In this document: piece after piece, positions 15,661 to 59,343 of the stretch | Position numbering within the stretch: the stretch's first letter is position 1 | How the letters are laid out: each line of letters opens with the position of its first letter | NCBI RefSeq assembly: GCF_009834875.1 | Contig: NZ_WVHT01000005.1 | Location: forward strand, 310,001-374,000 | Direction of reading: 5' to 3' | Length of the DNA: 64,000 bases | Source of the DNA: Hufsiella arboris | GTDB lineage: Bacteria > Bacteroidota > Bacteroidia > Sphingobacteriales > Sphingobacteriaceae | The notes under the pieces: model-generated | Seen by the model: only the letters and a program-made list of their open reading frames with translations | Told to the model about the DNA's origin: nothing | Databases searched by the model: none | Made by a program: the position numbers and the translations under genes

Positions 15661-15759
15661 CAACCGATCTTCAATACATCGCCAGCGCAACCTGGTTGCG
15701 TCATTGTTATGCAATCGGTTGCAATAAACTTTTTTAAAAATTATACTAGCCCAACCGAT
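15661..15759. promoter_or_regulatory. LacI-type operator cluster and promoter of the SDR/GH115 unit
   Basis: The space 15635-15900 holds a full operator TGCAATCGGTTGCA (15710-15723), identical to that before susC; a perfect 15-bp palindrome CGCAACC-T-GGTTGCG (15686-15700); and two half-sites CAACCGAT (15661-15668 and 15752-15759). The TTG of the full site (15719-15721), a 20-bp spacer and TATACTAG (15742-15749, 6 of 8 to TAnnTTTG) form a weak promoter. That would give a leader of about 145 nt before the SDR. Confidence 0.7.
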
Positions 15760-22472: not shown

Positions 22473-24023
22473 TCACTTATGGGCAATAAACTTATCAGCC
22501 CATTGAATAAAATATTTAACGTTGGGGGCATCGGTATGTCCACCGTCATGCTGGCGCCAGGCTAGTTCACCGTCAAGAAGGCCGGTATTTATCGGCGGCA
22601 TGTTCTCTTTGTTGTAATCATTTGACACGCCAAGGTCTTTTGCGCCTAAAAGCTTAAATACCGGGCCGGCGGCTACGGTTGCCATATAACTTCCCTGCTG
22701 ATCCAGCCATTTAGCATCTCCTTGTTCGGGAATGCCGTAACTGATAAAAGTCAGTCTCGGCGCACATAAAGCAATTAGCTCATGGGCGTCAACAGGAATA
22801 TCATTCGCAGTTTTGGCTCCAAACGTAGCTTCTAAGGCACCGTATTTCAAAAAATTGCCGGCCATCCAGTAATAACCACCCCCGGTAAGGTTTTCAACCG
22901 ACTCACCAAAGTTACGCCTGTGGAGCTTTGCACCGCCTTCGCCGGAGGAACCTATCAGCCCCATTTTAAAACGCGGTTCAAATGCCAGGGTTACCAATGC
23001 CGCCTTGCCGTAACGTGATACGCCTTCGATTCCTACATTTTTTGAATTGACGGCGGGCTCAGTTTCCAGGTAATCCAGTGCACGCGCAGCTCCCCACGAC
23101 CAAGCACGTAAAGCACCCCAATCATCTGGTTTACGAGGTTGACCCTTGTTAACCAAACCGATAATTCCCCGGGTTAGTCCTGCTCCGTTATCCGCCTGGA
23201 TACTCGCCGGGTCGATAAGTACATAGCCCCATCCAGCGGCTATGAGTTGCTGGTTTGTGGGCGGATCTCCCGGATCTCGTGGTGCGCCGAATCCGGGAAA
23301 TTCCTTTTCCTGGATAGGGTTGTAAGCCGGATAGCGTTCAAAAACGGCTTTTAGTTCGGGATGCTCTTTAATTAGAAGTTCCTTGATTGCCGAGTTGATC
23401 TTTTCAAGATCTTCTGCCAGTGGCTGAGCCGGTGCAGGCAGCGTGCTACGGCCAAACATCATCAATACAGGAACCGGACCTTTTGCATTCGCCGGCAGAA
23501 CTAAGGTCATTTTGATGTTTACGTCAATCAGCGGGTAGGCTGAATTATCGACGTGTCCAATAAGTTGTTTGGCAACTACCGGGAAAAATCCCACGAATTC
23601 CCTTTCGGCAACTTTTACAGACCAGGTTACTTTCGGCACATTTGCTGGTATACGGCCATAGACTTCACATTCAAAATCCTCTATCAGCTCCGGACGTCTT
23701 TGATTAATCCATTGCTTGGCGGTCGTAACTTTTCCCCCATTTTTTAATGTCAACACATCCGGAAGCCTTGGGTATGGATTAGCAAGAGCTTCGTCATAGT
23801 TTGCATGATTAGGAGCTTTTTCATCGCCGCTAGGGCCTGGACGAAGCGCCTTAATGCCTAATTGGTTCATCATATTAGCCTGATCCTGTTCGGCCGTAAA
23901 CGTTACTGGCGGTGGATAAGAGCCCGATTTTTCAGCTAGTTGCTGAGCATATAAAGGAAAACTAAAAATCAATACAAGGTATAATGTCGCTATCTTTTTT
24001 ATCGGCTTATTAAATAGGATCAT
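22473..24023 (-). CDS. CE15 glucuronoyl esterase
   Basis: A 516-residue alpha/beta hydrolase with a signal peptide (cleavage near A26). The nucleophile is S336 in GVSRYGKAAL, the CE15 GxSRxGK elbow with Val where many members have Cys. The probable acid is E362 in GSSGEGG and the His lies in QHDGGHTD (H492 or H496). CE15 enzymes cut the ester between lignin alcohols and the glucuronate of xylan, freeing the side chain for GH115/GH67. It is the last gene of the ECF-sigma/SusCD unit, 1 bp after the FG-GAP gene, and converges on the acetylesterase gene with 72 bp between them. I see no clear terminator in that space. Confidence 0.92.
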   Translation of the reverse strand: MILFNKPIKKIATLYLVLIFSFPLYAQQLAEKSGSYPPPVTFTAEQDQANMMNQLGIKALRPGPSGDEKAPNHANYDEALANPYPRLPDVLTLKNGGKVTTAKQWINQRRPELIEDFECEVYGRIPANVPKVTWSVKVAEREFVGFFPVVAKQLIGHVDNSAYPLIDVNIKMTLVLPANAKGPVPVLMMFGRSTLPAPAQPLAEDLEKINSAIKELLIKEHPELKAVFERYPAYNPIQEKEFPGFGAPRDPGDPPTNQQLIAAGWGYVLIDPASIQADNGAGLTRGIIGLVNKGQPRKPDDWGALRAWSWGAARALDYLETEPAVNSKNVGIEGVSRYGKAALVTLAFEPRFKMGLIGSSGEGGAKLHRRNFGESVENLTGGGYYWMAGNFLKYGALEATFGAKTANDIPVDAHELIALCAPRLTFISYGIPEQGDAKWLDQQGSYMATVAAGPVFKLLGAKDLGVSNDYNKENMPPINTGLLDGELAWRQHDGGHTDAPNVKYFIQWADKFIAHK

Positions 24024-24024
24024 G

Positions 24025-27000
24025 CTAGTTTAATTTGATTTTTCGGCTTTGGCCGTTTGTATTAAATATGGTTATGTCAGCTGTGTTTGGTCCGGCTGAA
24101 ATGAACCGGCCTGATTGTGAAAGGAACGATGAACCGTAGTAAAACTCCTGTTTATTGGATGTTCCGTTTTTATATTTTACGATCGCGCTTTGGTCCTTTG
24201 TTGTCAGCGGTAAGCATTTAGTATTCATAGTTGATTCGAATATTTTTAGCTTGTCGTTCCGCTGGCTAGCCGCCAGTAGTAGTGATCCATCACTTTTCCG
24301 GAGTTTTACGAGGGCTTTACCATCTCCGGGAATGTAGATACCGCTTTGTGCAATAGATAATGCCTTAAAGTGCCCGTGTCCATCGCCTTTCAGAAACAAT
24401 CCATTAAGCGCATCATATCGGCCGATAGAAACATCGGTTCCGAAATCGTTGCCGTTTATCACGACATCAAGATTGCTGTCGCCATCAAAATCATCAACCA
24501 CCATTCCATTGATTACTGAAACCTGCGCTTCCGGATTCAACGGAATCATCGAAAACTTTCCATTTCCTTCATTCCGCAGGTAGCAGCTTCTTAGTTCATT
24601 GGCATGAAGCCTGATAGATCCCTTCATTTGAGCAGGTGTGAACATCTCGGGCATAGTTGTCAGCGCGTATGATTTATAGTTTGTGAACTTTTTGCGCAAG
24701 CTTATCATTTGTTTAACCGCATCGTCGCGAACGTTGGCTGGAAATTCTTTTTTGGTGCCATTCTGGTCGGGCAGATAAAGAGATGGGAATGCATCAAAAT
24801 ATCCCCTGTTATCAAAGTCGTTTGCAGTGATATAAGCGGGATATTGATCGCTAACCTGGTATAACGTGTTGAGCCCGGTGTTGCCGATAATGTAATCCAT
24901 TTGTCCGGTATGCCTGAAATCTCCGGCAACGATGCTTGTCCACCAACCAGTTTTATTTTGTAAACCCGTGCCTGTCGAAACATCTTTAAAAGACCCGTGA
25001 TCATTCCGTAAAAACTTGATGGGCATCCATTCTCCTGCAAGTATGAGATCTGGCCATCCATCATTGTCGAAATCCGAAAACAGCGCGTCGCAAACCATCC
25101 CGATTTTTTGCAGGACAGGAGCGAATTGTTTTGTTACATCAGTAAACTTTACCACACCATCGTGTGAATCATTGCGGAATAAAAAGCTTGATACCGGCTT
25201 AGGATAATTCCAGGGATCAACACGGCCCGAAACAAAAAGGTCAGGTTTTCCATCTTTGTTAAAATCAGTTGCCCGAACACACAGCTTACTGGTATGATTT
25301 TTTGGAAGCGCATCTTCTGCGAGCCTGAAATTAGCCTGTCCGTCATTCAGATAAAGCCTGTCCTGATACGAGGGCGAGTTATGCGGGTTCTGATAGCCAC
25401 TGCCTGCAATATAAACGTCAGGCTTGTTGTCACCATTAGCGTCAAATATTAATACACCTCCATCTTTACCCGGTTCCGCAGACTGGCTATTTTCCAAAAA
25501 TAAATTCCGCTGTTTGAATTTTCCATCCGTTGTTTGCAGGAAAATCTTTGCCGGAGACTGGCTGTTGCCGCCAATAATAATATCGTCTCGTCCGTCAGCA
25601 TTTAAATCAGCAGTGGCCAGTGCCGGGCTGTATTCCGACAGTTTATGGGGAAGAAGTTTCTGAATGTTGAAATCGATGAAATCCTCTTCGGTGTCTTTGT
25701 AATTTATTCCAGTTTGTTTTGTTGCTTCCCTGAATATCGCTTTAGCGGATGTTTGCGCTATCTGCCAGTTAAAGCTATCGTGCGCCTCTTTTTCGTTTAC
25801 ATGAAGCACCTGATCCGCAGGTATGTTTCGTAGGATTTGCTTCTTATTACCAGGCCAACAGATGATAACAGAGTCAATCATCTTTGTAGTATTCAGCCCG
25901 AAGTGTGCAGCATTTTCTATTGTAGAGAGGTAGCCTCGATAAGGATTGTTTTCGTAAACCTGGTGCCTGCCATTGGCATAATAGATGTCGGCCCAGGCAC
26001 CAATTCCGTTTACATTTTCCTTGCCGCCTCCGAATTTTATCTGCAAAAAATGATTAGCGTTTTTATCCTCGTTTCGGGCATTGTTTTTATAGATCAGAGC
26101 CTCATCATTGATATTGTTGATGATCAGATCCATTGCGCCATCGTTGTTCAAGTCTGCGTAAACCGCGCCGTTCGAAAAAGTGGGAGTAGAAAGTCCCCAG
26201 TCGTTGCTGACATCGGTAAATTGGGCGCCGCCAGAGTTTTTAAAAGCGTAATTGTGAATCTTAACCTCAGGAATCTGTTTCAGGATTTCCATTTTAGAAG
26301 CCGACAGATACGGATTGTTTCGAAAAACGATAAAGTCGTGGTCCGTAACATCCTTTGGATAACCGTTGGTTACGATTATATCCCGGAGGCCGTCATTGTC
26401 AAAATCTGTAATTAACGGCGCCCAGCTCCAGTCTGTTTGAGCCACACCGCTCATAAACGCTGTTTCGCTGAATATCGGATCACCGATCGAGTCGTTTTCG
26501 CCCAACCTGGTACCTTGATTTAATTGAAGGGTGTTTCTTACATACTGATATTGATATCCATAATGATCAAAGTTTTGAAAGGTTTGATAGCTGCCGGCCA
26601 TGCTCATCATTTTCTTGCGATAGTTATCTTCAGGATTCATGTCTAGCTCGAAAATATCGGCGAGGCCATCGTTGTTTATGTCGATAATATCCTGGCCCAT
26701 GGCATTGAACGAAGTGTGTTTGAAATACTCTTTCGCCTTGTCAGTAAAAGTGCCGTCATGGTTATTAATGTACAGTAGATTATTAGACAGGAAATCGTTC
26801 GTTACGTAAATATCCTTCCATCCGTCTCGGTTGATGTCAGCTATCGAGACGCCGTGGCTGTAACCTTCAATTGTAATGCCTGCTTCTGCCGAAACGTTTG
26901 TGAATACAGCATGCTTAAGATGTTCATTCCAGTCGTTACGGTATAGTTTTCCCGTGCTGGGATAAGATCCGTTGGTGATAATCGGCCGGAAGTTGTTAGC

Positions 27001-27600
27001 ATAAGAGTTTGAATTTGGCCAGTTAACCGCCTGGTACATGTCGAGGTCACCGTCATTGTCGTAATCAAAAAAAGCGGCCATTGTTGAATGTGCATGAAGG
27101 TCTAGTCCATATTCACCGGCCTTATCTACGAAATGAGGAATACCCTTTTTGTCGACACCCATGTTAATATAAAGCAGGTTAGTACGCCTGAGGGAATCGT
27201 TCACGAAGGAGTTGCTTATATACAGGTCCAGCATGCCGTCGTTATTAATGTCAATAACGCTGATACCGCGGGCCCATCTCCCTTTTCCCTCAACGCCGGC
27301 TACATCGGTAACATCTTCAAAAGTGAAGTCACCCCGGTTCAGGTATAATTTATTCGCGACCATATTGCCTGTGAAATAAATATCCAGCAATCCGTCGTTG
27401 TTAAAATCGCCTACACCAACACCGCCGCCATTGTACGTGTAAGCATTGTCGATTGGGTTGATGGAGTCGTTCTCAGTTATAATATTATTGAAATGAATAT
27501 TCGAATGCGAAGAAGGGATCTGTTCAAACAGGGTAGGCCTGTTACAAGAGCTATATATAACGACGAACAAAGAGGCTACCAAAAACAGTTTAAACCGCAT
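24025..27600 (-). CDS. FG-GAP/VCBS-repeat ASPIC (UnbV) lipoprotein
   Basis: A 1191-residue secreted protein with a probable lipobox at C19 (VIYSSC). It is full of calcium-loop FG-GAP repeats, for example DFNNDGLLDIYF, DINNDGMLDLYI, DYDNDGDLDMY and DINRDGWKDIYV, which should form one or two beta-propellers. An ASPIC/UnbV-type segment with GIGAWADIYYANGRHQVYENNPYRGYLS lies mid-protein, followed by a second propeller. These proteins are commonly linked to SusC/SusD genes in Bacteroidota, but their job is not established; surface glycan binding is one idea. It lies between susD (after a terminator-like hairpin) and CE15, 1 bp before the latter. Confidence 0.88.
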   Translation of the reverse strand: MRFKLFLVASLFVVIYSSCNRPTLFEQIPSSHSNIHFNNIITENDSINPIDNAYTYNGGGVGVGDFNNDGLLDIYFTGNMVANKLYLNRGDFTFEDVTDVAGVEGKGRWARGISVIDINNDGMLDLYISNSFVNDSLRRTNLLYINMGVDKKGIPHFVDKAGEYGLDLHAHSTMAAFFDYDNDGDLDMYQAVNWPNSNSYANNFRPIITNGSYPSTGKLYRNDWNEHLKHAVFTNVSAEAGITIEGYSHGVSIADINRDGWKDIYVTNDFLSNNLLYINNHDGTFTDKAKEYFKHTSFNAMGQDIIDINNDGLADIFELDMNPEDNYRKKMMSMAGSYQTFQNFDHYGYQYQYVRNTLQLNQGTRLGENDSIGDPIFSETAFMSGVAQTDWSWAPLITDFDNDGLRDIIVTNGYPKDVTDHDFIVFRNNPYLSASKMEILKQIPEVKIHNYAFKNSGGAQFTDVSNDWGLSTPTFSNGAVYADLNNDGAMDLIINNINDEALIYKNNARNEDKNANHFLQIKFGGGKENVNGIGAWADIYYANGRHQVYENNPYRGYLSTIENAAHFGLNTTKMIDSVIICWPGNKKQILRNIPADQVLHVNEKEAHDSFNWQIAQTSAKAIFREATKQTGINYKDTEEDFIDFNIQKLLPHKLSEYSPALATADLNADGRDDIIIGGNSQSPAKIFLQTTDGKFKQRNLFLENSQSAEPGKDGGVLIFDANGDNKPDVYIAGSGYQNPHNSPSYQDRLYLNDGQANFRLAEDALPKNHTSKLCVRATDFNKDGKPDLFVSGRVDPWNYPKPVSSFLFRNDSHDGVVKFTDVTKQFAPVLQKIGMVCDALFSDFDNDGWPDLILAGEWMPIKFLRNDHGSFKDVSTGTGLQNKTGWWTSIVAGDFRHTGQMDYIIGNTGLNTLYQVSDQYPAYITANDFDNRGYFDAFPSLYLPDQNGTKKEFPANVRDDAVKQMISLRKKFTNYKSYALTTMPEMFTPAQMKGSIRLHANELRSCYLRNEGNGKFSMIPLNPEAQVSVINGMVVDDFDGDSNLDVVINGNDFGTDVSIGRYDALNGLFLKGDGHGHFKALSIAQSGIYIPGDGKALVKLRKSDGSLLLAASQRNDKLKIFESTMNTKCLPLTTKDQSAIVKYKNGTSNKQEFYYGSSFLSQSGRFISAGPNTADITIFNTNGQSRKIKLN

Positions 27601-27665: not shown

Positions 27666-29198
27666 TTAGAGATTAGGATTGTTATCAACTTCTGCCTGGG
27701 GAATAGGCAGGTATTCCTTCGCTGCCGTATACCATGACAATGGTTCTACAGCGAAATAGCCTTTTCTTCTCCATCTTAAAATGTCAATGTTTCTGACTTC
27801 CTCGTTGCTCATTTCCGCGGTCTTTTCATGCATAATAGCTTTTGCAACATCTGCTTTTGAGGATACCGGATATTGTGCGGTCGGGTATGACGGCATCGCT
27901 ACGCTTGGCCGTGCCCTAACCTGGTTCAGATAGGCTACAGCTGCCGGAATATTTCCAAGTTCATTTTCGCATTCAGCAAGATTGATCAGTACTTCCGCAT
28001 AGCGCATCAAACGCTGATTATTACTTCCCGGATGAAAGGAGGCAAACGCTTTATCTTCTTTGTAAATCAGCTGAAATTTGCGGAAGCCAACTTTCAATGT
28101 CTTGCCATTCACTGTTGATGAATTACCGTTTTGATCGGTTTCTACAAGAGTCGATTGTCCGTTATTATAAGTGTCTCCGCTTTGATAAAAGCTGTAGGCA
28201 TAACGGGGATCCGTTTTTGCAGCGCCAGTGGCGGTATTTTCAAACTCATTTAGCACTTTGTCCGAAGGGATAAGGTTTCTCCAGGCAATCGGGTTATATT
28301 CCTGGTTACGTACAGTTGACTGTGCAGCGGAAACACCATCGCCTACAGCTCCCCAATTAAAACCATTGTCGCCTTTGTCAGAGTAAACCATCTCAAAAAT
28401 GGACTCATTATTAAACTCGGTTTCTTCTTCGAAATTATCCAGGAATCGTGATGTCAGCGAGTAACCGTCAGCTCCTGAAGTCGGGATTTTCAGCAACGCG
28501 TCTTTCGCACCTTGATAATCGCCCGACTGCATATAAACCCTGCCCAGCAAAGCATAAGCGGCAGCGGCTGTCGCGCGGCCCTTGTCCGTTGCTGATTTTC
28601 CGGGAAGTACGCTTGCAGCTTCGCTCAGATCCTTTACTATTTGCGCGTACACATCTTCGATTTTTGCCCGGGGATGGGAATCCGTGGGGCTTTTTACTGT
28701 TGTTGTGTAAACAGGAACGCTTCCCCACATACTTGCCAGTTCAAAATAAGCCCAGGCTCTTGCAAATTTCGCTTCTCCAACAAGCTTATCTCTTTCTGCG
28801 GGGTTGTCGGTTACGTTAGGGGCGGCGTCAGTTACCGTGTTTGCACGATGAATCATAACATAAAGGCCATTCCAAACGGAGTTCATTACCGGATTCGCCG
28901 GATCCACTACCCCAATAAGAATTTGATTACGGGGTGCCTCCAACTGGCTTCCTCCTGATACTACGTCGTCGCTCCGAAGGTCGTGCAGGAAAAACCATTC
29001 CCTGCCCACCAAATTTACGCTATGCCATGCGGAGTAGATGGCAAAAGTACCCGCAGTTAGCTCACTGGTGTTTATGAAGTAGTTTTCAGTGGGTACCACA
29101 TTCGGATTGCTGATGTCTAGATCTTTCTTACACGAAAAAACTCCTGCACCCATTATCGTTAAAATGGTGAGGCATTTATATATTGTTTTACTTTTCAT
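27666..29198 (-). CDS. SusD/RagB family surface lipoprotein (xylan locus B)
   Basis: A 510-residue SusD with lipobox GVFSC (Cys23), the usual CKKDLDISNPN start, TPR-like middle (ARAWAYFELASMWGSVPVY; YALLGRVYMQSGDYQGAKDALL) and the C-terminal YLPIPQAEVDNNPNL. It is encoded 19 bp after the STN-type SusC at 29218 and should form its lid. It differs strongly in length and sequence from the locus A SusD, so the two pairs probably take up different forms of glucuronoxylan fragments. Confidence 0.95.
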   Translation of the reverse strand: MKSKTIYKCLTILTIMGAGVFSCKKDLDISNPNVVPTENYFINTSELTAGTFAIYSAWHSVNLVGREWFFLHDLRSDDVVSGGSQLEAPRNQILIGVVDPANPVMNSVWNGLYVMIHRANTVTDAAPNVTDNPAERDKLVGEAKFARAWAYFELASMWGSVPVYTTTVKSPTDSHPRAKIEDVYAQIVKDLSEAASVLPGKSATDKGRATAAAAYALLGRVYMQSGDYQGAKDALLKIPTSGADGYSLTSRFLDNFEEETEFNNESIFEMVYSDKGDNGFNWGAVGDGVSAAQSTVRNQEYNPIAWRNLIPSDKVLNEFENTATGAAKTDPRYAYSFYQSGDTYNNGQSTLVETDQNGNSSTVNGKTLKVGFRKFQLIYKEDKAFASFHPGSNNQRLMRYAEVLINLAECENELGNIPAAVAYLNQVRARPSVAMPSYPTAQYPVSSKADVAKAIMHEKTAEMSNEEVRNIDILRWRRKGYFAVEPLSWYTAAKEYLPIPQAEVDNNPNL

Positions 29199-29217: not shown

Positions 29218-32200
29218 TTAAAAACCAGCCTGAATGCCAAATTGAAATGATCGTGCTGCCGGATACTGACCGAAATCTACCCCATTGGTCAGCGTACCTC
29301 CGGAAGTGTTCTGGTTTTTATTGCCGACTTCCGGATCAAAGCCATTGTATTTTGTAAATGTGAAAAGGTTTTGTGCAGACACATAGAATTTCAGGCGGCT
29401 GATTGTGTTTTTTGCAAATGATCTTAAAACCGTAGGCGACATTGTGTAGCCAATAAGCACATTTTTCATTCGCAGGTATGAGCCATCTTCTACCCAGCGT
29501 GTGGACAGCCTTCCGTTTCGGTTTGGATCTCCTGCGATTGCTCTTGGAATTGTCGAGCTTGAGTTTTCCGGTGTCCATGCGTTAAGAACGTTTATGCCGG
29601 AGTTAAACAGCCTTGGCATACCTTCAACAATGATGTTTTCCGCGTTTAAAACGTCATTTCCCTGTACGCCCTGGAAGAATAAGGTTAGATCAAAATTTTT
29701 GTAATTCGCCGAATAGTTCAACGAGTATGTGAATTCCGGAAGAAAGCTGCCTATAAACGTACGGTCATAAGAATCGATCACACCGTCGGGAGCACCGTTC
29801 GGGCCACCGATATCTCTGAATTTAATATCACCGGCGGCTGCATTGTCCTGTTTAGGGCTGTTTGCAACTTCCTGGGCATTTTTAAAAATGCCGTCAGCTA
29901 TCCATCCGTAAAATGACTGAACAGATCTGCCGGCCACAGTGTTTGTGAATGGATCACCGCCACCGAAATCCGCATCGCTGCCTGAAAAAATCGAAGCATT
30001 GGGCGTATTTAAACTTAGTACTTTATTGCGGATTACACTGAAAAGGCCTTCAATGTCAAACGTGAAATCACCAGATCTTTTGTGGTAACCTAACTGAAGC
30101 TCGCCGCCTATATTTTGCATAGCGCCGACGTTAGCGTATGTTCCTACGCCAAGGAAACCCTGGCTTGGAGCTGTGGGTACGGTTAGGATCAGGTTATCAG
30201 TTTTACGTTTAAAATACTCGGCTACTACGGTGAATTTGTTGTCGCTGAAACCCAGGTCGAGGCCAATATTCAGCTGTTTTGTTTTTTCCCAGCTCAGGTC
30301 CAGGTTGGTAAGGCCATTGGTGTAAGAAGCGTTCCCGCCTCCTGGAGCAACGTTGCCGATAGGATAAAATGCCTTGTTTGAGTTAACCGGAGACAGGTAC
30401 GGGTAATTGCCCAGCCCGCCGGGAGGAATGCCCGTTAAACCGTATCCAGCCCGCAATTTAAGTTCTGATATGACTTTGCTGTTTTTAAGGAAGTTTTCCT
30501 GGTCAATTTTCCAGCCAACAGATGCTGAGGGGAAGTTGGCAAACTTGTGGTCAGGGGCCCATATTGAAAATCCATCGCGACGAATTGATGCGCTCACGAG
30601 ATACTTTCCTTCAAAGTCATAGTTAACGCGCCCTACGAGCGATTGCAAAAGATTGCTCTCGTTGGTATTGTTAGCGGCCACATTTGACGCGCCGTTAAGC
30701 GTTTTTATCAGATTAGTAGACTGGTTACCCGAAGATGTTTCGGTGATAACTTTGTATCCCTGCTGTTCATATACCGCTGTGGCAGAAACGTGGTGTGAAC
30801 CGAATGATTTGTCAAACGTAAGCTGTTCAGTAAATAACTTGGTAGTTGATGATACCCGTTGGTTGGCAATGTTTGCGGACGTTGCACTGAGTGTTCCACC
30901 GTCATTGTAAATCGGGGTATAGTTTTGGGTATAGCCGTTGGTGTAATCAATGCCGAACGTTGAACGAAATCTTAGCCAGGACGTAAAATTTATATCCAGG
31001 TAAGCGGTTCCCAACGTTTTATTCGTTTTAACAGTATTGGAGCCAATCAAAGCTGCTTCAACTGGGTTGGTTGGGTCAGAGCCATCAAAACTGCTTATCG
31101 GGCCCTGGTAACCACCGTTCGTTGTGGGGTCATGAAGCGGGATGTATGGCGTCATGCGGATAACGTTAGTCAGTGGAGTCCGGTTGCCTTGTGTAGCATC
31201 GTAATGCTGATTTCCCACCGCGGTGTAAAAGTTTTCGCCGAACGTAAACACCTTGCTGATTTTGTGTTCTGAGTTTATTCTGAAATTATATCGATCATAG
31301 CTTAATCCCTGCGCAATGCCATCCTGGTAAAAGTAACCTCCCGAGGCATAGAACTTTGACATTGCATTTCCTCCGCTTAATGAAAGATTGTTTGAAGTTA
31401 AAAAGGCATTCGTTTTAAAATAGGCGTCTTGCCAGTCGGTATAGGTTTGCGCATAAGTTTGGGTTGCGCCTGCGTAGATAGGGCTGTTAAAATTAGCCGG
31501 ACTAAAGCGCGGCGGCAAATTATTAGCTCCATTTAATGCGGTGGCATACTGTACGTATTGTTCCGTGTTCAGCAAATCTAACCGGTTAGATGGACTTTGA
31601 ATGCCGGCGTAAGAGTCAAGAGCTACCTGCAGTTTGTTATTTGAATTTCCTTTTTTCGTTGTAATGAGTATGACGCCGTTGGTTGCCCTGGATCCATAGA
31701 TCGCTGCAGCACTCGCATCTTTCAAAACTTCAACAGACTGGATATCTCTTGAGTCGAAACTTGAGAGGTTGCCTGTCGGAAAGCCGTCTATCACATATAG
31801 CGGATCAGACGCAAAGTTTATTGAACTGATACCGCGGATAGTTACAATTGGTTGTGTGCCGGGCGATCCGTTATTGGTTACGTTTAATCCGGCTACACGG
31901 CCCTGTAAGGCTTGTTCGACGCTCGCTACAGGCAAAGCGTTAATTTTAGCTGAACTTACAGAAGCAATGGCGCCGGTTAATGTACTTTTTTTCTGGGATC
32001 CGTAACCTACCACAACAACCTCGTTAAGTGCCTTTGTGTCGCTTTTTAGCTGAACATTAAGAACTGTATTGCGGCCTACTGGTATTTCCTGTGATACATA
32101 GTTTACTGATCTGAAAATCAGTACCGCATTTTCGTTCGGTACATTTATACGAAAGGTTCCGTTTATGCCAGTGGCAACTGCGACAGAACCACCCTTAACT

Positions 32201-32664
32201 AGGACGCTCACTCCAAGCATAGGCTCGGAATTTTCGTCGGTGACCGTTCCGGTTATAGTTATATCCTGCCTTGGATCAATAGTAGCTGATTCTGCAAGGT
32301 TGATTTCGTCGGGTGAAACCATTCGGTTCAGCACTATCGCGTTACCGGAAACTTCATATTTGATATTTCTGGAGGTTAGCAACTTTGACAGGACTTGTGC
32401 CAATGGAATATTTTTAAAGTTTACAGATACCTTGTTAGATGCTGGTATTAATACCGGACTATAAACAAACGTTACATCTGCGATTTTTTCGATGCTTACC
32501 AAAATCTGGCTGATCTCCAGATTCTTCGCATCCAGACTAATCTTTTGATCAAGTACCTGGGCGCTGGAATTGCCGGCCAGAGCTCCGCTGATCAGGGTAA
32601 GACTAAGAGCCATGTGAATAACCGTTATACGCATTATAGCAGTTAATGAAGATTTTTTTTTCAT
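29218..32664 (-). CDS. SusC/RagA TonB-dependent transporter with STN signalling domain (locus B)
   Basis: An 1148-residue transporter. The order is a signal peptide (cleavage near A35), an STN secretin/TonB N-terminal domain (about 40-112; LDAKNLEISQILVSIEK), a carboxypeptidase-regulatory-like domain (about 135-208), TonB box LNEVVVVGYG (213-222), a plug and a barrel. The STN domain is what relays substrate occupancy to a FecR anti-sigma factor, and a FecR/ECF pair lies directly upstream. The unit is thus positively autoregulated by substrate, in addition to the LacI-type site before the sigma gene. Confidence 0.96.
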   Translation of the reverse strand: MKKKSSLTAIMRITVIHMALSLTLISGALAGNSSAQVLDQKISLDAKNLEISQILVSIEKIADVTFVYSPVLIPASNKVSVNFKNIPLAQVLSKLLTSRNIKYEVSGNAIVLNRMVSPDEINLAESATIDPRQDITITGTVTDENSEPMLGVSVLVKGGSVAVATGINGTFRINVPNENAVLIFRSVNYVSQEIPVGRNTVLNVQLKSDTKALNEVVVVGYGSQKKSTLTGAIASVSSAKINALPVASVEQALQGRVAGLNVTNNGSPGTQPIVTIRGISSINFASDPLYVIDGFPTGNLSSFDSRDIQSVEVLKDASAAAIYGSRATNGVILITTKKGNSNNKLQVALDSYAGIQSPSNRLDLLNTEQYVQYATALNGANNLPPRFSPANFNSPIYAGATQTYAQTYTDWQDAYFKTNAFLTSNNLSLSGGNAMSKFYASGGYFYQDGIAQGLSYDRYNFRINSEHKISKVFTFGENFYTAVGNQHYDATQGNRTPLTNVIRMTPYIPLHDPTTNGGYQGPISSFDGSDPTNPVEAALIGSNTVKTNKTLGTAYLDINFTSWLRFRSTFGIDYTNGYTQNYTPIYNDGGTLSATSANIANQRVSSTTKLFTEQLTFDKSFGSHHVSATAVYEQQGYKVITETSSGNQSTNLIKTLNGASNVAANNTNESNLLQSLVGRVNYDFEGKYLVSASIRRDGFSIWAPDHKFANFPSASVGWKIDQENFLKNSKVISELKLRAGYGLTGIPPGGLGNYPYLSPVNSNKAFYPIGNVAPGGGNASYTNGLTNLDLSWEKTKQLNIGLDLGFSDNKFTVVAEYFKRKTDNLILTVPTAPSQGFLGVGTYANVGAMQNIGGELQLGYHKRSGDFTFDIEGLFSVIRNKVLSLNTPNASIFSGSDADFGGGDPFTNTVAGRSVQSFYGWIADGIFKNAQEVANSPKQDNAAAGDIKFRDIGGPNGAPDGVIDSYDRTFIGSFLPEFTYSLNYSANYKNFDLTLFFQGVQGNDVLNAENIIVEGMPRLFNSGINVLNAWTPENSSSTIPRAIAGDPNRNGRLSTRWVEDGSYLRMKNVLIGYTMSPTVLRSFAKNTISRLKFYVSAQNLFTFTKYNGFDPEVGNKNQNTSGGTLTNGVDFGQYPAARSFQFGIQAGF

Positions 32665-32754
32665 AAATTTGAAATGGTTAATTGGTTTTGATAAAATTCC
32701 ATACCTGACTTCCTTTTCTACTGTTTGCTACTGAGTAAAGGAAGAAACCGACTT

Positions 32755-32783
32755 CATCGGCAGTGTGATCAGCACTGCTGATG
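32755..32783 (-). other. Hairpin in the FecR-susC intergenic leader
   Basis: CATCGGCAGTG (32755-32765) pairs with CACTGCTGATG (32773-32783) with one G-T pair and a 7-nt loop. A second stem CTTCCTTT/AAAGGAAG lies at about 32709-32744. No T-run follows on the minus strand, so these look like mRNA leader structures rather than a terminator. The space is 162 bp. Confidence 0.4.
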
Positions 32784-32826
32784 ATTATTTCTGACTTGGT
32801 TGAGTTTTCTACATATTTTTCTGAGT

Positions 32827-33909
32827 TTAATTAGTGTTGTCAATCTGTTCATTGCCGCAGCCTTTCCCTTCAATTATAACCTGTCCGTTTACATATTTGT
32901 AATCTGCTTCAATAGCCTTACAAATAAGTTTTAAGCGTTCGTCGAGTGATTGCCTGACCAGAGATGCGGTTACCTGGCAGTTTTTCATTACAGCTTCGTC
33001 GTATAAAATATGTATGCCATAAGCCTTTTCAATGGTTGAGATAACTGTTGGAAAAGGCGTTTGTGAAAATTTAAAATGAATTGCGGTAGATACTTCGGAA
33101 AGCAGTACAGGCTTAGCCAGAACATCTTTCTTCAGCCTCAATTCCCGACGGTCCAGAACTGCGTGTTGATTAGGCATTAAAACCATTATCAAAGTGTTGG
33201 CTTGCCGATTTTTCAGGTTGCCCGCAAAAACTTCAACTCTTCCGGTACTCACCAATACCTCGAATGAATGAGTGTCCTCGTTAGCCTTAACATTAAAGCT
33301 CGTTCCCACAACCCGAACGGTCATCTCCTTTGAAAAGACGTAAAAAGGCTTGTTGGGATTTTTAGTCACCTCGAAGAACGCTTCTCCGATTAAATTCACT
33401 TCCCGCTGCCGCGAATCAAATGTTTTTGGATAAATAATTTGTGCATTTGGTTGTAAGACAGCCAAACTTCCATCCGGCAGCTTAATGATGGCGGATTTAT
33501 TTTGGTTATTTTTTATCCGCTGAAAGGCTGTTTGTGACTTCTGTTCGTTGGCCGGCTGTAATAATACATAACTAATATAGCCAGCTGAACAAAATAGTAT
33601 AATAGCCGCAGCAATACGGAAGGGCCGAAAATTCCAAAAATTGATTAGGTCACCAAAATTTTTTTTAGATGTTTTTGCTTCGAAATTTGAAACCATTCTG
33701 TCAATTGCCGACTGTGATAAATCCTTTTCGGGTTTTATTTTGAGTGATTTGGCGATTATACAGGCCTGATGGAACTTTTCTTCATTCTGTGGAAACGCTT
33801 TAAGGTAGTCATTCCAGAATTCGTTCGGTCTCGAGTTTCCCAATACCCATTCAATAAATGAATCATCCAATAGATAATCTTCAACCTCTTGAAAGTTATT
33901 GTTTGTCAT
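32827..33909 (-). CDS. FecR family anti-sigma factor
   Basis: A 360-residue single-pass inner-membrane protein. It has an N-terminal cytoplasmic sigma-binding region (about 1-95), a membrane segment at 98-117 (FRIAAAIILFCSAGYISYVLL), a periplasmic FecR domain (about 130-235; AIIKLPDGSLAVLQPNAQIIYP, GEAFFEVTKNPNKPFYV) and a C-terminal DUF4974-like domain (about 285-350). It should hold the ECF sigma factor encoded upstream until the STN domain of the downstream SusC signals substrate. It lies 95 bp after the sigma gene. Confidence 0.95.
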   Translation of the reverse strand: MTNNNFQEVEDYLLDDSFIEWVLGNSRPNEFWNDYLKAFPQNEEKFHQACIIAKSLKIKPEKDLSQSAIDRMVSNFEAKTSKKNFGDLINFWNFRPFRIAAAIILFCSAGYISYVLLQPANEQKSQTAFQRIKNNQNKSAIIKLPDGSLAVLQPNAQIIYPKTFDSRQREVNLIGEAFFEVTKNPNKPFYVFSKEMTVRVVGTSFNVKANEDTHSFEVLVSTGRVEVFAGNLKNRQANTLIMVLMPNQHAVLDRRELRLKKDVLAKPVLLSEVSTAIHFKFSQTPFPTVISTIEKAYGIHILYDEAVMKNCQVTASLVRQSLDERLKLICKAIEADYKYVNGQVIIEGKGCGNEQIDNTN

Positions 33910-34004
33910 GAAGTAAGGGTATAATTGGTTTCTACTATTATATATTCAGAAAAGACAGAAATCTACTGTATAAATTGAAAATATTTTTAGCAACAGGCCA
34001 ACTG

Positions 34005-34586
34005 CTATAAGCTGTTGTACACGGGGCTTTTTGCCCAATACTTGCGCATGCTTAAAATAGATTCATGCAGCAGGTTATATACTGATTGCCGGTTTAGGTT
34101 CATGACTTCGGCTATTTTCTCCTGTGACATACCTTCGTAAAACCTTAAGTACAGAATTTCTTTTTGTCTCTTAGGAAGGTTCATTAAAATCGATTTAAGT
34201 TTGGCGCATATCTCCTGCGACAACTCTTCATGGATAATAGCAGATTCCACGTTAAACTCAACTAGGAAGTCAGGGTTATCATCGATAGGTATAATTTTCT
34301 TCCACTTCGGTCTTTCGTGGAAAATTCGCAAGCGTAGTGCCTTAAATAAATACGACTTAACAGATTCTGCCTGTTTGATCTTTCCTCTTCTGTTCCAAAG
34401 TTCAAAAAAAACGTCTTGTATACAGTCTTCTACAAATCCCGGATCGTCAATAAATCGGATGCCATATTTATACAAAGGACTGGCGAATGTTCGGATTAAA
34501 ATGCCATAAGAGACATCGTTTCCTGCACGCAAATCACTCCATAGTTGAAGAGCACTTTCACTGGATATAAAAGAGTTTTTTCGCAA
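34005..34586 (-). CDS. RNA polymerase ECF sigma-70 factor
   Basis: A 193-residue ECF sigma factor of the SusC/FecR-linked type. Region 2 contains IDDPGFVEDCIQDVFFELWNRR (about 40-62); region 4 contains LPKRQKEILYLRFYEGMSQEKIAEVMNLNRQSVYNLLHES (about 137-176). It is the first gene of locus B. Its promoter carries a LacI-type palindrome over the -33 box, so the sigma factor itself appears to be under LacI control, while its activity is under FecR/SusC control. Confidence 0.96.
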   Translation of the reverse strand: MRKNSFISSESALQLWSDLRAGNDVSYGILIRTFASPLYKYGIRFIDDPGFVEDCIQDVFFELWNRRGKIKQAESVKSYLFKALRLRIFHERPKWKKIIPIDDNPDFLVEFNVESAIIHEELSQEICAKLKSILMNLPKRQKEILYLRFYEGMSQEKIAEVMNLNRQSVYNLLHESILSMRKYWAKSPVYNSL

Positions 34587-34639
34587 TGGTTTAAATTTGG
34601 TTACGGTGGATTGTAAAATTGGCGTTACAGTCCTTTAAA

Positions 34640-34678
34640 CAAATCTATAAAAATATTTCAATTCCGCAATCGATTGCA
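34640..34678 (-). promoter_or_regulatory. ECF sigma promoter with LacI-type operator on the -33 box
   Basis: On the minus strand, the palindrome TGCAATCGATTGCG (34665-34678) contains TTG (34667-34669). After exactly 19 bp comes TAGATTTG (34640-34647), a perfect match to the Bacteroidota -7 TAnnTTTG. The predicted leader to the ATG at 34586 is about 50 nt. The geometry equals that of the susC promoter at 4145-4174, which supports both. Confidence 0.8.
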
Positions 34679-34946
34679 TAAATTAATTTGCATTAGCGAC
34701 TGAAGGTGATTCAAAGGCATCGGCTACAATTAAATGAAAAGCTGAAACTGAGGAAACGGACGATCCTTTTCGGTTCTCCTGTAGGCTATTCGCCTATTGT
34801 AATAATCAAAAAACCAGCTGTGTTGCGGGGTGTACGGTGAGTTTGAGTGTTACTCAATAGTAAGTTGGTATAAATGCATATCTTGGGGTATGCAAAAAAA
34901 GGCCTTAATAATTAAAAAGGCTCTTTGTATGTTTAAATGTTTTTGG

Positions 34947-35034
34947 CGGAGAGTGAGAGATTCGAACTCTCGATACACTTTTGGCGTATACACACTTTCC
35001 AGGCGTGCTCCTTCAACCACTCGGACAACTCTCC
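34947..35034 (-). tRNA. tRNA-Ser (anticodon GGA)
   Basis: Minus strand. The acceptor arms GGAGAGT/ACTCTCC pair fully. The anticodon stem CACGC/GTGTG encloses the loop CTGGAAA with anticodon GGA. A long variable arm typical of class II tRNA-Ser follows, then a GTTCGAATC T-loop. The discriminator is G, and CCA is encoded next to it (34944-34946). The rest of the 34587-35136 gap holds the ECF promoter and a small hairpin TAGGC/GCCTA near 34783-34797, with no gene. Confidence 0.95.
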
Positions 35035-49486: not shown

Positions 49487-50813
49487 ATTGACGGATAGGT
49501 TTTACTCCGGCCTTTTTTATTTTCTCGATAACGTTTGTTGCAACGGCTACGCCCTGTCTGTTCCCTTCTTCAATGCTATCCCGGTAATGGATGCCGCCAT
49601 ACAAACGTGAGATGGAAGCTTCCGCCGCGGCTTGCTTAAAGGATTTAAACGACCGCGGACCTAAACCAAATGGAAGTTCGGTATCATCGGTATAGGCGAA
49701 ATTGTCGCCGAGCAAATACGTTAGTATGGTGGCAGAAGAATTTGAAACAACGGCGTGCCCGCTGGTGTATTCTGGAAAGGGGGGAGTTTGCAGATAAGGC
49801 TTCCAGTTAATATCAATAATACGATTGATGTAAGTTTCCGGCCGCACACGGCTGCTACGATACTTTTCGTCCCAACATCCGATAAACCCATCCATCAGGG
49901 TGATCGCTTCAATTGTCATGACTTCTACAGATTCGTCCGTGCTCAGATTCGCTTTTTTCACAGCCAGCGCGGCAATATTCATCCAGTGGCCGCCGGGGCT
50001 GATCTTTTTAAAGCCGATGTTCATGTGCCCTGAAGTGGTGATAGCAAAAGGGTTACAGTCCCAAAACGATGCCATTAAAATTTTTCCGTTATCCGCTTGT
50101 TTAACTGTTGTATACACTTCCTTCGCCATTTTGAAAAACTTGCTGGTAGAGTCTTTACTGAATGCGACCGGAGGCGCAGGCTTAAATTGTGCAGCTGAAT
50201 CGATTACCAATGGACGAATGCGATTCCAGTTAGGTTCAACGGCATCCAGGTAAGACGGCGGTGTCGGATACCAGAACGCGTCTCCTTTTATTGGTGTATA
50301 ACGCAACATCGCGCTTAATTTGCTGTAATTGTCCGATTTCGAAAAACTGATCACTTCTTCCGAAGATTTGGCAGCCATCGCAATAGCCTTGTCAATTACC
50401 TCCTGACGGATTTTGTTCTTTTTTAATAACCGGATATAATTGTCCTGATCATCCTGAATCATATATCCTGACGGCAGCATTATTTTGGCGGTTTCCAGCA
50501 TACTGTAAATAGCGGCAATCGTATATGCTTCATCCTGAGCGGCGCTATTGTTTTTTGGAAAATTTTTAATGAATGTACCGGCTGCGGGAATACCTTTATT
50601 GTTTTCAGAGATAATTTTATAAGCCGACAACATGGAGTACGCATAATACCTCGCAGCAACCGGAGGGCTGATCACATCGTGAATCATCACCATGTTTATC
50701 GAGTTTATAACAGGTGCGATTTCGAGATAAGCAGGCTGATTTTTTTTGCTGTCGGCAAAGCAAACACTGGCGCTGAAAAACAGGATAAAGACGACGTTTT
50801 TTAAAAATTTCAT
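49485..50813 (-). CDS. Vanadium-dependent haloperoxidase-like / PAP2 family exported protein
   Basis: A 442-residue exported protein of the PAP2/vanadium haloperoxidase superfamily, with a signal peptide (cleavage near A20). The vanadate/phosphate pocket is complete: a KX6RP motif in KYRSSRVRP, SGH at 351-353 in EYTSGHAVVS, and SRLYGGIHYRD with R403 and H409. It could oxidise halides or be an acid phosphatase; sequence does not separate these. Its start overlaps the stop of the FG-GAP/ASPIC gene as ATGA, so the two are translationally coupled. It is the last gene of the SusC/SusD unit starting at 59042. Confidence 0.88.
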   Translation of the reverse strand: MKFLKNVVFILFFSASVCFADSKKNQPAYLEIAPVINSINMVMIHDVISPPVAARYYAYSMLSAYKIISENNKGIPAAGTFIKNFPKNNSAAQDEAYTIAAIYSMLETAKIMLPSGYMIQDDQDNYIRLLKKNKIRQEVIDKAIAMAAKSSEEVISFSKSDNYSKLSAMLRYTPIKGDAFWYPTPPSYLDAVEPNWNRIRPLVIDSAAQFKPAPPVAFSKDSTSKFFKMAKEVYTTVKQADNGKILMASFWDCNPFAITTSGHMNIGFKKISPGGHWMNIAALAVKKANLSTDESVEVMTIEAITLMDGFIGCWDEKYRSSRVRPETYINRIIDINWKPYLQTPPFPEYTSGHAVVSNSSATILTYLLGDNFAYTDDTELPFGLGPRSFKSFKQAAAEASISRLYGGIHYRDSIEEGNRQGVAVATNVIEKIKKAGVKPIRQ

Positions 50814-53800
50814 TGTTCTTTGTAAAACTTAACCGGTTCATTTGCCTGGCCGATTACCAGATAATTTGTGTTATTAATCCTGATTTCCAGCGCGGATTTA
50901 ACATCTCCTTTTACTGAAAGTCCACTCACTGTTTGCGATTGATAACTGAAACTCCCTTTCCCGTCTCCGGTTAAGAGAACGCCATAATTTGCATCAATAC
51001 TTCCCATCTTCAGGCGGTTATCTGAATGGTTGCCCAATAATAGGAGATCTATTTTTCCGTCGCCGTTAAAATCACGTGCAATCGTCGCCGTGACCGGCGC
51101 GAACTGGGCTTCGAGCGGTAGTGCTGCAGGCTGATACTTGCCGTCGCGGAAAATGTAGCAAGTTGTTTCGGTAGTTGTCGCCTGAAGCTTGCCGGCTTTG
51201 TTAAGTTGTTCCTGCGTGAAAATATCTTTCATTGAAACGTCGGCATAAGCTTTGTAAGAACCGAACTTTTTCCGCATCGGGTAGATCTGTTCATTTAATT
51301 CGTCGCGGCTTACGAATGGATATGATGTGTCTCCATTATAGAAATTAAAAAAGGGATCGATAGAGCCGTTACTGTCGAAATCATCAAAATACAATTCGGC
51401 AGGTTGAGCAACTGTCGCATGCACCGGAGAGTTTAACCCGAGATTGCCGACTATCAGATCCGGCGAGCCATCAGCGTTGATGTCTGCGACTGTCAGAGAA
51501 AACCACAATCCGCTTTGCGGCGCTGAGAAATATTCTGAAGATTTATCTTCAAAGCCACCTGCTGTGTTTTTGTAGACTTTTATTGGCATCATCTCTCCAC
51601 ATACAATAAGGTCTTTTCTGCCGTCTTTATCAATGTCTGTCCATTGAGCGTCGGTAACCATTCCGGCATCTGCAAAGGGCGTTTGTGCTACCGTGAACAT
51701 TCCTTTTCCCCCGTTAACGAGGAGATAGCTTTTAGCGGCTTTAGGGTATTCGCCCGGAATAACGCGTCCGCCGATAAAAAGGTCTATGTCACCGTCTCCG
51801 TCGAAATCACACGGGCGAATACAGGATTTGCTGCTTGCTGAAACATCCGGAAGAGGTGCTGAATTAAAAATGCCCTTGCCATTATTGATGAAAAGCTGAT
51901 CCTGCAACTCGGGCGTATTCGGCTGATAAAGGGAATATCCTCCTTTGGCCAGGTAAAGATCCGGAAAGCCGTCGCCGTTAGCATCAAAAAAAGCCGCTGC
52001 CGAGACCGTTGAAGTTTGGTTTCCACCCAAAAGGTCTGAAAACTGAAAACTGCCATCGCTTTGCTGAATAAAAATTTTTCCGGGCGATTCCTGATCGCCG
52101 CTGATGAAAAGATCTTCAAGCCCATCCTTATTTATGTCAGCTTTGGCCAACACCGGCGAAGTTTTCGAATACATGAAAAGCATCAGCAGCTGGCGCTTAA
52201 AATCATTAATTGTATTTTCTTTAGGCTGAAAACTTATCAGCGGCGCGTTTTCTGTTAAATATGGTTTTCCTGTTTTAGGAAGATCTGCGAACGAACCTGT
52301 CTCCGGTTTATAATTGACCGTCAGATGCTGGTTTGATTTTATATCCTTCAGGCGCTGTACTTTTCCGTCAGGCCAGATGATGCGAATTGAATCGGCATGA
52401 TCTTCCTTTCCTAGCCCAAAATTGAGCACCGTTGAAATGCTTGAAAGATAACCGCGACCTGGATTTAACTCCTGGTATTGCTGTGTGTTCCTGTTGTAAA
52501 TATGAATTTTTGCCCCGACGGCGTTAGTATTTATCGGATAACCAGTAAGTTTAATAGTCAAAAAAGACGCTTTCCTAGTGTCACTAGCCGTGTTTTGATA
52601 AAGCGATGCTTCTTCGTTTATGTTGCTAACAACCAGGTCAAGGTCGCCGTCATTATCCAGGTCTGCGTAAACTGCTGCACTTGAGATCGACGGATTCGTC
52701 ATCCCCCAGGCCGATTGTTCGTTTGTAAATGTCAGATCTTGATTATTTCTGAAAATATAATTGGGAAGTTTTGTTGAAGGCATTGCCGTCACCAGATCCA
52801 TCAGAAGAAATGGTTCCCGGGCCATCGCTTTTTTTATTTTATAATCGCCCCAATAACGGAGGAAATCTTTATTGGTATAATCACGGAGATATCCGTTCGT
52901 TATGAAGATGTCTTTATATCCGTCATTGTCGAAATCGGCAAATAACGGACACCAGCTCCAATCGGTTGCGGCCAGGCCTGTCAGCTGAGCAATTTCGCTG
53001 AATGTTTCGTTGCCATTGTTGAGCTGGAGCATATTCCGCATATATTGTTTGTATAAGCCTTGCGTTTGCATCAGCGCGAATGACTCATAGTTTTCTTCCA
53101 GCTGCAGCGATTTCTGACGATGATTATCCGGCGGAAGCATATCGAGGGTTAATACATCGGGGAGCGCGTCATTATTGTAATCAGCAATATCCACCCCCAT
53201 AGAAAAATGCGAGAGGTGTTTAAAAAAGCTTTTCGATTTATCGGTGAATGTGCCGTTGTGATTATTGATATAGAGATAATCGGGTTCGTTATAATCATTG
53301 GTGACATAAATATCCTGCCAGCCATCCTTATTCACATCAGCGATGGCGATACCAAGGCCAAACGTAAGCGGGTTTTGGATAATTCCCGCTTTTTTTGATA
53401 CGTCGGTGAAATGATTTCCATTGTTTTCAAAGAGTTTATTCTCTGCATATTCGTCGGTCATGCTTTTGACCTGAGCCAGCTCCATATTATCAATTTTTTT
53501 GATATTATGATTGATCAGCATCATATCGAGATCTCCATCGTTGTCATAATCAAAAAATGCAGCTTGTGTGCTGTAGCCGGAGTTGTCAAGTCCGAATTCC
53601 TTGGCCTTTTCGGTGAAAGTGCCGTTTTGGTTGTTTATAAAAAGTTGATTTTTTCTTTTGTCGGGTTCCGCAGTACCTGAATAGCAAACATAAATATCCA
53701 GCCAACCATCACTATTTACGTCGGCCATTGCCACGCCAGTTTTCCAGCTTCCGGGCCGGCCTTCCAAGCCTTTTCCAGCATTTTTTGTGACGTCTTTAAA

Positions 53801-54115
53801 TTTCAAGTTTCCCTGGTTCAGATAGAGCTTGTTGGCTGTCATGTTGCCGGTAAAAAAAAGATCGGGAAGACCATCATTATTTACATCGCCAACGGCCACT
53901 CCGCCACCGTTATAAAAATATTCGTAGGAAAGCACATTGAGTGCTTCGTTTTCCTTGATGTCATTACTGAAATGGATACTTGTTTGCTTCGGATCAAGGA
54001 GATTAAAAAGGGGTTGTTGAGCCACCGACGGAACAACAGAGAGTATTAGACCAGTTTGTAAACAGCATCGCAAAAGCCAGGATGAAGACGAGAAGAGAGC
54101 TTTAATTTTAGACAT
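50810..54115 (-). CDS. FG-GAP/VCBS-repeat ASPIC (UnbV) protein
   Basis: An 1101-residue exported protein, the counterpart of the one at 24025. A signal sequence lies at about 11-32 and ends in a Gln-rich VAQQP, so it may not be a lipoprotein. Calcium-loop FG-GAP repeats are frequent (DVNNDGLPDLFF, DVNSDGWLDIYV, DYDNDGDLDMML, DVNKDGWQDIYV), with the ASPIC segment GAKIHIYNRNTQQYQELNPGRGYLS in the middle. It follows susD after a strong terminator hairpin and overlaps the haloperoxidase-like gene by 4 bp, which suggests the two work together at the cell surface. Confidence 0.88.
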   Translation of the reverse strand: MSKIKALFSSSSWLLRCCLQTGLILSVVPSVAQQPLFNLLDPKQTSIHFSNDIKENEALNVLSYEYFYNGGGVAVGDVNNDGLPDLFFTGNMTANKLYLNQGNLKFKDVTKNAGKGLEGRPGSWKTGVAMADVNSDGWLDIYVCYSGTAEPDKRKNQLFINNQNGTFTEKAKEFGLDNSGYSTQAAFFDYDNDGDLDMMLINHNIKKIDNMELAQVKSMTDEYAENKLFENNGNHFTDVSKKAGIIQNPLTFGLGIAIADVNKDGWQDIYVTNDYNEPDYLYINNHNGTFTDKSKSFFKHLSHFSMGVDIADYNNDALPDVLTLDMLPPDNHRQKSLQLEENYESFALMQTQGLYKQYMRNMLQLNNGNETFSEIAQLTGLAATDWSWCPLFADFDNDGYKDIFITNGYLRDYTNKDFLRYWGDYKIKKAMAREPFLLMDLVTAMPSTKLPNYIFRNNQDLTFTNEQSAWGMTNPSISSAAVYADLDNDGDLDLVVSNINEEASLYQNTASDTRKASFLTIKLTGYPINTNAVGAKIHIYNRNTQQYQELNPGRGYLSSISTVLNFGLGKEDHADSIRIIWPDGKVQRLKDIKSNQHLTVNYKPETGSFADLPKTGKPYLTENAPLISFQPKENTINDFKRQLLMLFMYSKTSPVLAKADINKDGLEDLFISGDQESPGKIFIQQSDGSFQFSDLLGGNQTSTVSAAAFFDANGDGFPDLYLAKGGYSLYQPNTPELQDQLFINNGKGIFNSAPLPDVSASSKSCIRPCDFDGDGDIDLFIGGRVIPGEYPKAAKSYLLVNGGKGMFTVAQTPFADAGMVTDAQWTDIDKDGRKDLIVCGEMMPIKVYKNTAGGFEDKSSEYFSAPQSGLWFSLTVADINADGSPDLIVGNLGLNSPVHATVAQPAELYFDDFDSNGSIDPFFNFYNGDTSYPFVSRDELNEQIYPMRKKFGSYKAYADVSMKDIFTQEQLNKAGKLQATTTETTCYIFRDGKYQPAALPLEAQFAPVTATIARDFNGDGKIDLLLLGNHSDNRLKMGSIDANYGVLLTGDGKGSFSYQSQTVSGLSVKGDVKSALEIRINNTNYLVIGQANEPVKFYKEQ

Positions 54116-54187
54116 GAGACCTAGCCGGATTTAAATGCAAAAGTTAATAGTTTGTCGGCAAAAAAAGTGTTTAGATTGCTTATAAAT

Positions 54188-54217
54188 ACATAAAGAGACC
54201 AGTAGGTCTCTTTATGT
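54188..54217 (-). terminator. Terminator/attenuator between susD and the FG-GAP gene (third locus)
   Basis: ACATAAAGAGACC pairs perfectly with GGTCTCTTTATGT (13 bp) over a 4-nt loop, 20 bp after the susD stop on the minus strand. No long T-run follows, but the stem is strong. It repeats the susD-hairpin-FG-GAP layout of xylan locus B. Confidence 0.7.
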
Positions 54218-54237
54218 AAAAGATTTTAATTCGTTAA

Positions 54238-55830: not shown

Positions 55831-55835
55831 GTCTG

Positions 55836-59042: not shown

Positions 59043-59343
59043 ACTTTTTACTTGGTTTGGTGATGAGTGTGTTTTGCAAGGCAGTTTAGAGAGATGGCTG
59101 CAAGCCTTGCGGTTACAGCGATTAAAATTTGTTGTTTTTCGTCATGTGTTTATAAATTAAGTGAGATGTGTTTGCTTAGGAATGTTCGAAACAGTCAATT
59201 TACATGCATTATTATTTGTGCTTGTAAAAGAATAAATTTGTTAAGAAACTAATTTCCAAGGTAAAAATTCTTTTACGTAAACGCAAATACTTTGTAAATT
59301 TTTTAAAAAGTATAAAATTTATTTTTAATTGCCAATTATAACT
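59043..59343. promoter_or_regulatory. Divergent control region of SusC and the ROK regulator
   Basis: 301 bp without a gene. A 10-bp perfect palindrome TTTACGTAAA lies at 59272-59281, just before TACTTTG (59288-59294), a promoter-like box in the ROK direction. A looser pair TTTACA (59199-59204) and TGTAAA (59223-59228) is also present. These are candidate ROK operators; I cannot confirm them from a single copy. Confidence 0.4.

Follow-up and report, generated by a model that had tools for sequence, protein, structure and literature searches.

Background

Reviews describe the control of glycan loci by extracytoplasmic function (ECF) sigma factors and anti-sigma factors as driven by the external substrate (PMC3878776, PMC10766802). 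For Bacteroides, LacI-family uronate regulons (UxuR, KdgR, UxaR and UxmR) have been described, and some monosaccharide regulons also cover a few extracellular functions (Ravcheev 2013, PMC3878776). In the portion of that study considered, ECF sigma/anti-sigma control is treated as a separate type, ECF promoters are not predicted and there is no mention of an ECF sigma gene with a LacI site. A further described system combines Fur repression of fecI with FecA/FecR/FecI signaling (PMC9249621). The subject of the present analysis is the ECF sigma gene of a glycan locus, locus B, in a stretch of 64,000 nucleotides from Hufsiella arboris (contig NZ_WVHT01000005.1, positions 310,001 to 374,000), called the window below. 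The source organism is a plant-fiber-digesting soil bacterium. The promoter of this sigma gene contains a LacI-type operator, which would place a cytoplasmic repressor ahead of signaling through a SusC with an STN domain and a FecR-type anti-sigma factor.

In gene set and domain architecture, locus B is like the Bacteroidetes polysaccharide utilization loci (PULs) with an STN-bearing SusC, FecR and ECF sigma, whose mechanism is outlined in PMC3878776. It is also like the Bacteroides uronate regulons of the same source, in which LacI regulators control glucuronate catabolism in Bacteroidetes. In the standard account of STN/FecR/sigma PULs, the extracellular substrate alone is enough, whereas the sigma gene of locus B additionally has the LacI operator. 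In this respect it resembles Fur control of fecIR in Escherichia coli (and of hasI in Serratia), where a cytoplasmic repressor at the sigma promoter is joined to control of the sigma protein by an STN-TonB receptor and FecR. The differences are that the substrate of locus B is a glycan and that the repressor belongs to the LacI family: a repressor site does lie in the sigma promoter, but it is of the LacI regulon class and not a Fur site. In the Fur-fecI system the internal signal is a corepressor, and iron sufficiency shuts the system, whereas in locus B an inducer would lift LacI and both inputs would be positive. By this analogy locus B would work like the Fur-fecI system without being one. 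No precedent for LacI joined with ECF/FecR/SusC was found in the literature searched, which is weak evidence given its incomplete coverage.

Results and discussion

A LacI-type operator at the sigma gene of locus B

An earlier note on this stretch had proposed two-layer control of locus B, by LacI at the sigma gene and by STN/FecR at the sigma protein. The features on which this proposal turns are the following.

34665-34678: LacI-type operator CGCAATCGATTGCA in the sigma-gene promoter, with a perfect 12-bp palindrome kept in orthologous sigma promoters
34005-34586, minus strand: ECF sigma factor, FecI-like (Pfam Sigma70_r2 and r4; TIGR02985, TIGR02937; TTG start as listed)
32827-33909, minus strand: FecR-type anti-sigma factor (Pfam FecR and FecR_C; hydropathy gives a transmembrane segment at residues 99-117)
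29218-32664, minus strand: SusC-B, TonB-dependent transporter with an STN signaling domain (Pfam STN, CarbopepD_reg_2 and Plug)
32329-32475, minus strand: STN domain of SusC-B, residues 64-112 (Pfam PF07660, E 1.6e-11)

Pfam confirmed the STN-SusC, FecR and ECF sigma that the note had assigned to locus B, all on the minus strand. The STN domain of SusC-B scored 44.2 bits with PF07660 against a cut-off of 28.4, and the FecR with its transmembrane helix adjoins a sigma factor with regions 2 and 4, as in surface-signaling genes. The operator that the note had placed at the sigma gene also held up. It is a CpG-centered palindrome, GCAATCGATTGC at 34666-34677 within the 14-mer, and lies 78 bp upstream of the sigma gene. 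Orthologous STN loci were compared in eight genomes (the window, Mucilaginibacter sp. OK268, a genome designated G287, M. gilvus and four further records), with a match of 12/14 or better taken as the threshold. The operator was present at the sigma gene in seven of the eight (the window and six of the seven others), 76-92 bp from the start. When 200-bp sigma upstream regions were shuffled under a dinucleotide model, matches of at least 12/14 appeared in 34 of 16000, and at the same threshold none of 20 non-orthologous sigma-FecR loci had an operator. LacI sites were not supported as a general feature of ECF sigma genes: among 94 ECF upstream regions, LacI-type palindromes were found at the three orthologues and two others, compared with 15 of 1880 shuffles.

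The pattern GCAATCGNTTGC is rare, occurring in eight places in the 4.8-Mb genome. Three of these are in the window, and the two besides the sigma-gene site are at the neighboring locus A:

4136-4149: LacI-type operator TGCAATCGGTTGCA between lacI and susC-A
15710-15723: LacI-type operator TGCAATCGGTTGCA upstream of the SDR-GH115-GH10 genes

The sites outside the window include the divergent promoters of xylB/LacI and uxuA/LacI, a GH43 gene and a transaldolase-like gene. Across the family, the motif TGCAAYCGRTTGCA was present in 111 of 301 genomes, with only a handful of matches for a reversed-pattern control. Sites were fetched from many of the motif-bearing genomes and their neighbors classified; most were LacI, SusC-A, GH10, GH67, GH115, GH43, SASA, SDR, uxuA, xylB and ALDH genes, and CE15 genes also occurred. 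Since xylose, glucuronate and xylan genes dominate among these neighbors, the motif was assigned as the operator for those sugars. At least three LacI clades adjoin it across the family, and the CpG-centered palindrome is common to the lacI promoter and to targets and is conserved across genomes, as in a LacI-family repressor/operator regulon. In the best explanation, which we consider quite probable as a whole, the sigma gene is one member of a LacI regulon that spans the family and serves xylose, glucuronate and xylan. One of the sites outside the window, the operator-like TGCAATCGGTTGCT (L019:9804-9817), has an SPFH gene on one side and a methyltransferase gene on the other and may be due to chance.

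Promoter geometry

The sigma promoter was read against the Bacteroidetes -33/-7 promoter consensus, which gave two elements.

34667-34670, minus strand: predicted -33 element (ATTG), which lies within the operator's right half (from the sequence, and from a constant distance of 19 bp to the -7 box across seven aligned promoters)
34640-34647, minus strand: predicted Bacteroidetes -7 element TAGATTTG of the sigma gene (sequence and alignment; TAnnTTTG is enriched at that operator offset)

The operator, the 19-bp gap and the -7 box (TAGATTTG or TATATTTG) are fixed in all seven aligned sigma promoters (ATTG-19 bp-TAnnTTTG), so that the expected -33 element falls on the operator's right half. Among 110 distinct operator sites, the TAnnTTTG box peaked at two offsets, with 12 and 7 sites against 0.17 per offset; one of these peaks corresponds to an operator overlapping the -7 element, and the other is the -33 arrangement of the sigma gene. 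Both arrangements would suit a repressor, and an operator overlapping a predicted -33 or -7 element is placed to block the promoter. At the sigma gene the predicted geometry is that of repression by occlusion of the -33 element. The parts of the cascade, the operator, its conservation and its geometry are all read directly from the sequence.

Further candidate sites lie downstream in the cascade.

34612-34629: inverted repeat TGTAAC-N6-TTTACA, shortly after the predicted start point of the sigma gene (kept in 5 to 6 of 8 orthologous promoters)
33943-33967, minus strand: putative sigma-dependent promoter AGTAGATTT-N-GAATA before fecR (boxes like it recur between sigma and fecR at most such loci in the family)
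32756-32781, minus strand: conserved inverted repeat CGGCAGTG...CACTGCCG upstream of susC-B, between fecR and susC-B (8-locus alignment)

The TGTAAC-N6-TTTACA repeat has four copies in the genome and is possibly the site of another regulator, hence a third regulatory input. The box before fecR, a single match in the window, is a candidate for the promoter consensus of the FecI-like sigma factors of these bacteria, in which case transcription of fecR-susC would depend on the sigma factor. The repeat upstream of susC-B is strongly conserved and clear in most of the eight STN loci, and may be an RNA hairpin or a regulator site. A stable RNA hairpin was considered there and set aside, since covariation was weak despite the conservation and a DNA site is equally possible.

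Alternative wiring in relatives

Orthologues of SusC-B were found in 33 of 399 family genomes; four carry STN and 29 do not. In 16 of the 29 STN-less loci, an operator (12/14 or better) lies no more than 700 bp upstream of the aligned start of susC, and in none of the 29 does an orthologous sigma-FecR pair adjoin susC; two fetched flanks contained an unrelated ECF gene further off. With the operator before the sigma gene in STN loci or before susC in STN-less loci, the LacI operator in either wiring marks the first promoter, the head of the cascade. In a quick tree of SusC-B (orthologue loci L254-L283), the STN forms fell into two groups nested among STN-less forms, which points either to repeated gain of the sigma-FecR-STN module or to a gain followed by loss. 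The chances seem about even that this module came in by insertion, separating a LacI operator that was already there from the susC gene it controlled. Such an insertion would have turned a one-input locus into one with two inputs, inside and outside, with an inducer-type repressor setting the sigma supply and possibly three LacI paralogues feeding the operator.

Proposed two-layer mechanism

Serial control, with the LacI operator on the sigma gene and then STN/FecR on the sigma protein, is strongly supported as an architecture by the conservation of the motif, the geometry of the promoter and the different wiring seen in relatives. To this extent the two-layer proposal of the earlier note stands; its AND gate and its intracellular sugar inducer come from knowledge of the protein families. 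We infer LacI binding, the sign of repression, the effector, the sigma targets and AND behavior.

The mechanism as a whole, as predicted from sequence, is likely to run as follows. With no internal sugar signal, a LacI-family repressor on 34665-34678 would cover the -33 element, keeping sigma low and probably fecR read-through low too. A catabolite derived from xylan or glucuronate would lift LacI, and sigma would be made and held by FecR. Extracellular oligosaccharide on SusC-B would then signal through STN to FecR and free the sigma factor, which would transcribe fecR-susC-susD and the downstream genes. Induction would thus probably need signals from both sides of the membrane.

The LacI regulators and the weighing of other explanations

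The LacI regulator encoded in the window and the first gene of locus A are as follows.

3049-4080, minus strand: LacI-family regulator, divergent from locus A (Pfam LacI and Peripla_BP; tree)
4264-7398, plus strand: SusC-A, without an STN domain (Pfam)

The window LacI has a helix-turn-helix and a sugar-binding domain (Pfam LacI, 49.9 bits; Peripla_BP_3, 107.8 bits). The genome encodes two paralogues, 51% identical beside uxuA and 40% identical beside xylB, with the same operator class at both. In the LacI tree, the window LacI and one relative (G036) fell inside a well supported clade with uxuA-linked LacIs, and the xylB-linked LacIs formed a separate clade. All eight STN-bearing genomes hold at least one LacI of the window/uxuA clade. 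The operators at the uxuA-linked (L020:7204-7217) and xylB-linked (L016:10836-10849) genes raise the further point that xylose and glucuronate control may converge on common sites. Up to three LacI paralogues could therefore read the sigma operator, and the repressor on it may be the window LacI, the uxuA-linked or the xylB-linked one; because the paralogues have the same operator class, loss of a single LacI may be without effect. Xylose, glucuronate or a derivative are candidate effectors, and the neighbors of window-clade LacIs (uxuA, SDR, GH67 and GH115) favor a glucuronate-derived one.

The alternative of most weight, which we place somewhat short of even, is that the sigma operator is read mainly by the uxuA- or xylB-linked paralogue, or by all three, so that the gate reports general xylose/glucuronate catabolism and not the locus A regulator. 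The 14-mer TGCAATCGGTTGCA is identical at the window lacI and the uxuA-linked lacI, with a related site at the xylB-linked lacI, and in Mucilaginibacter sp. OK268 (G269) and G287 an operator-bearing sigma gene occurs alongside uxuA-type LacIs without an orthologue of the window LacI. Nothing decisive speaks to the contrary, but the window LacI and its own operator share one locus. It is unlikely that LacI control of sigma is real and the STN/FecR layer a weak modulator, which would make locus B close to a simple LacI locus. That most orthologues lack STN and that many of those have the operator upstream of susC would agree with it, but STN, the transmembrane and C-terminal domains of FecR, and sigma are intact and together in eight genomes, and the box before fecR is conserved. 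The LacI family includes activators and CcpA-like catabolite regulators, and the site could be a positive or catabolite-type element of this kind. The overlap of operators with -33 or -7 at fixed offsets and the presence of the motif at divergent lacI promoters, as in autorepression, make this slightly less probable still. That the palindrome arose by chance or belongs to a different gene is very improbable and largely refuted: the 8-mer core AATCGATT is not rare, but chance is ruled out by conservation in orthologues, fixed spacing, the near-empty reversed-pattern control and the shuffles. Service to a rightward gene is ruled out as well, the sole other neighbors being a minus-strand tRNA-Ser (34944-35034) and a thioredoxin gene more than 450 bp away.

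Several observations weigh against the preferred explanation, serial LacI and STN/FecR control. Recognition-helix positions differ between the window LacI and the uxuA-type LacIs, and for this reason the window LacI need not be the binder of the sigma operator. The M. gilvus operator matches at only 12/14. At one STN locus (L318) the operator is missing, even though the LacI and eight other sites are present in that genome. With 12/14 as the threshold, 13 of the 29 STN-less loci are without an operator, so membership of locus B in the regulon is not universal.

Gene content of the two loci and neighboring features

The remaining genes of locus B are listed here.

27666-29198, minus strand: SusD-B (Pfam SusD_RagB)
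24025-27600, minus strand: FG-GAP/UnbV_ASPIC surface protein (Pfam)
22473-24023, minus strand: CE15-type glucuronoyl esterase (Pfam GCE_fung)

On the minus strand, locus B thus reads ECF sigma, FecR, STN-SusC, SusD, FG-GAP/UnbV protein and CE15-type glucuronoyl esterase. Under the explanation judged probable above, it is a glucuronoxylan/lignin-ester SusCD locus with the ECF sigma gene heading its cascade. Locus A runs on the plus strand from the divergent LacI and encodes a SusC without STN, as the earlier note had said, then SusD, GH2, GH67, GH8, SDR, GH115, GH10 and a SASA-type esterase. The two loci are convergent and meet at about 22.4 kb, and glucuronoxylan is the substrate that fits the enzymes of both. 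The further suggestion that locus A responds first is unsupported: a single motif class covers the sites of both loci and relative affinities are not readable from sequence, so the order does not follow.

Upstream of the sigma gene, tRNA-Ser(GGA) (34944-35034) is co-directional with it, with no predicted terminator between them, and read-through is possible. A second SusCD locus (50810-59042, minus strand) encodes an FG-GAP/UnbV_ASPIC protein resembling that of locus B and adjoins a ROK regulator (59329-60546).

Significance

In locus B, how much sigma factor is available appears to depend on sugar catabolism inside the cell. The relatives offer a natural comparison, in which the same SusC-B stands either directly under LacI or under LacI together with STN/FecR, and the reason for adding a second layer of sensing to a locus thereby becomes open to test. 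For this whole family of soil Bacteroidetes, the analysis predicts a regulon for xylose, glucuronate and glucuronoxylan and defines its operator.

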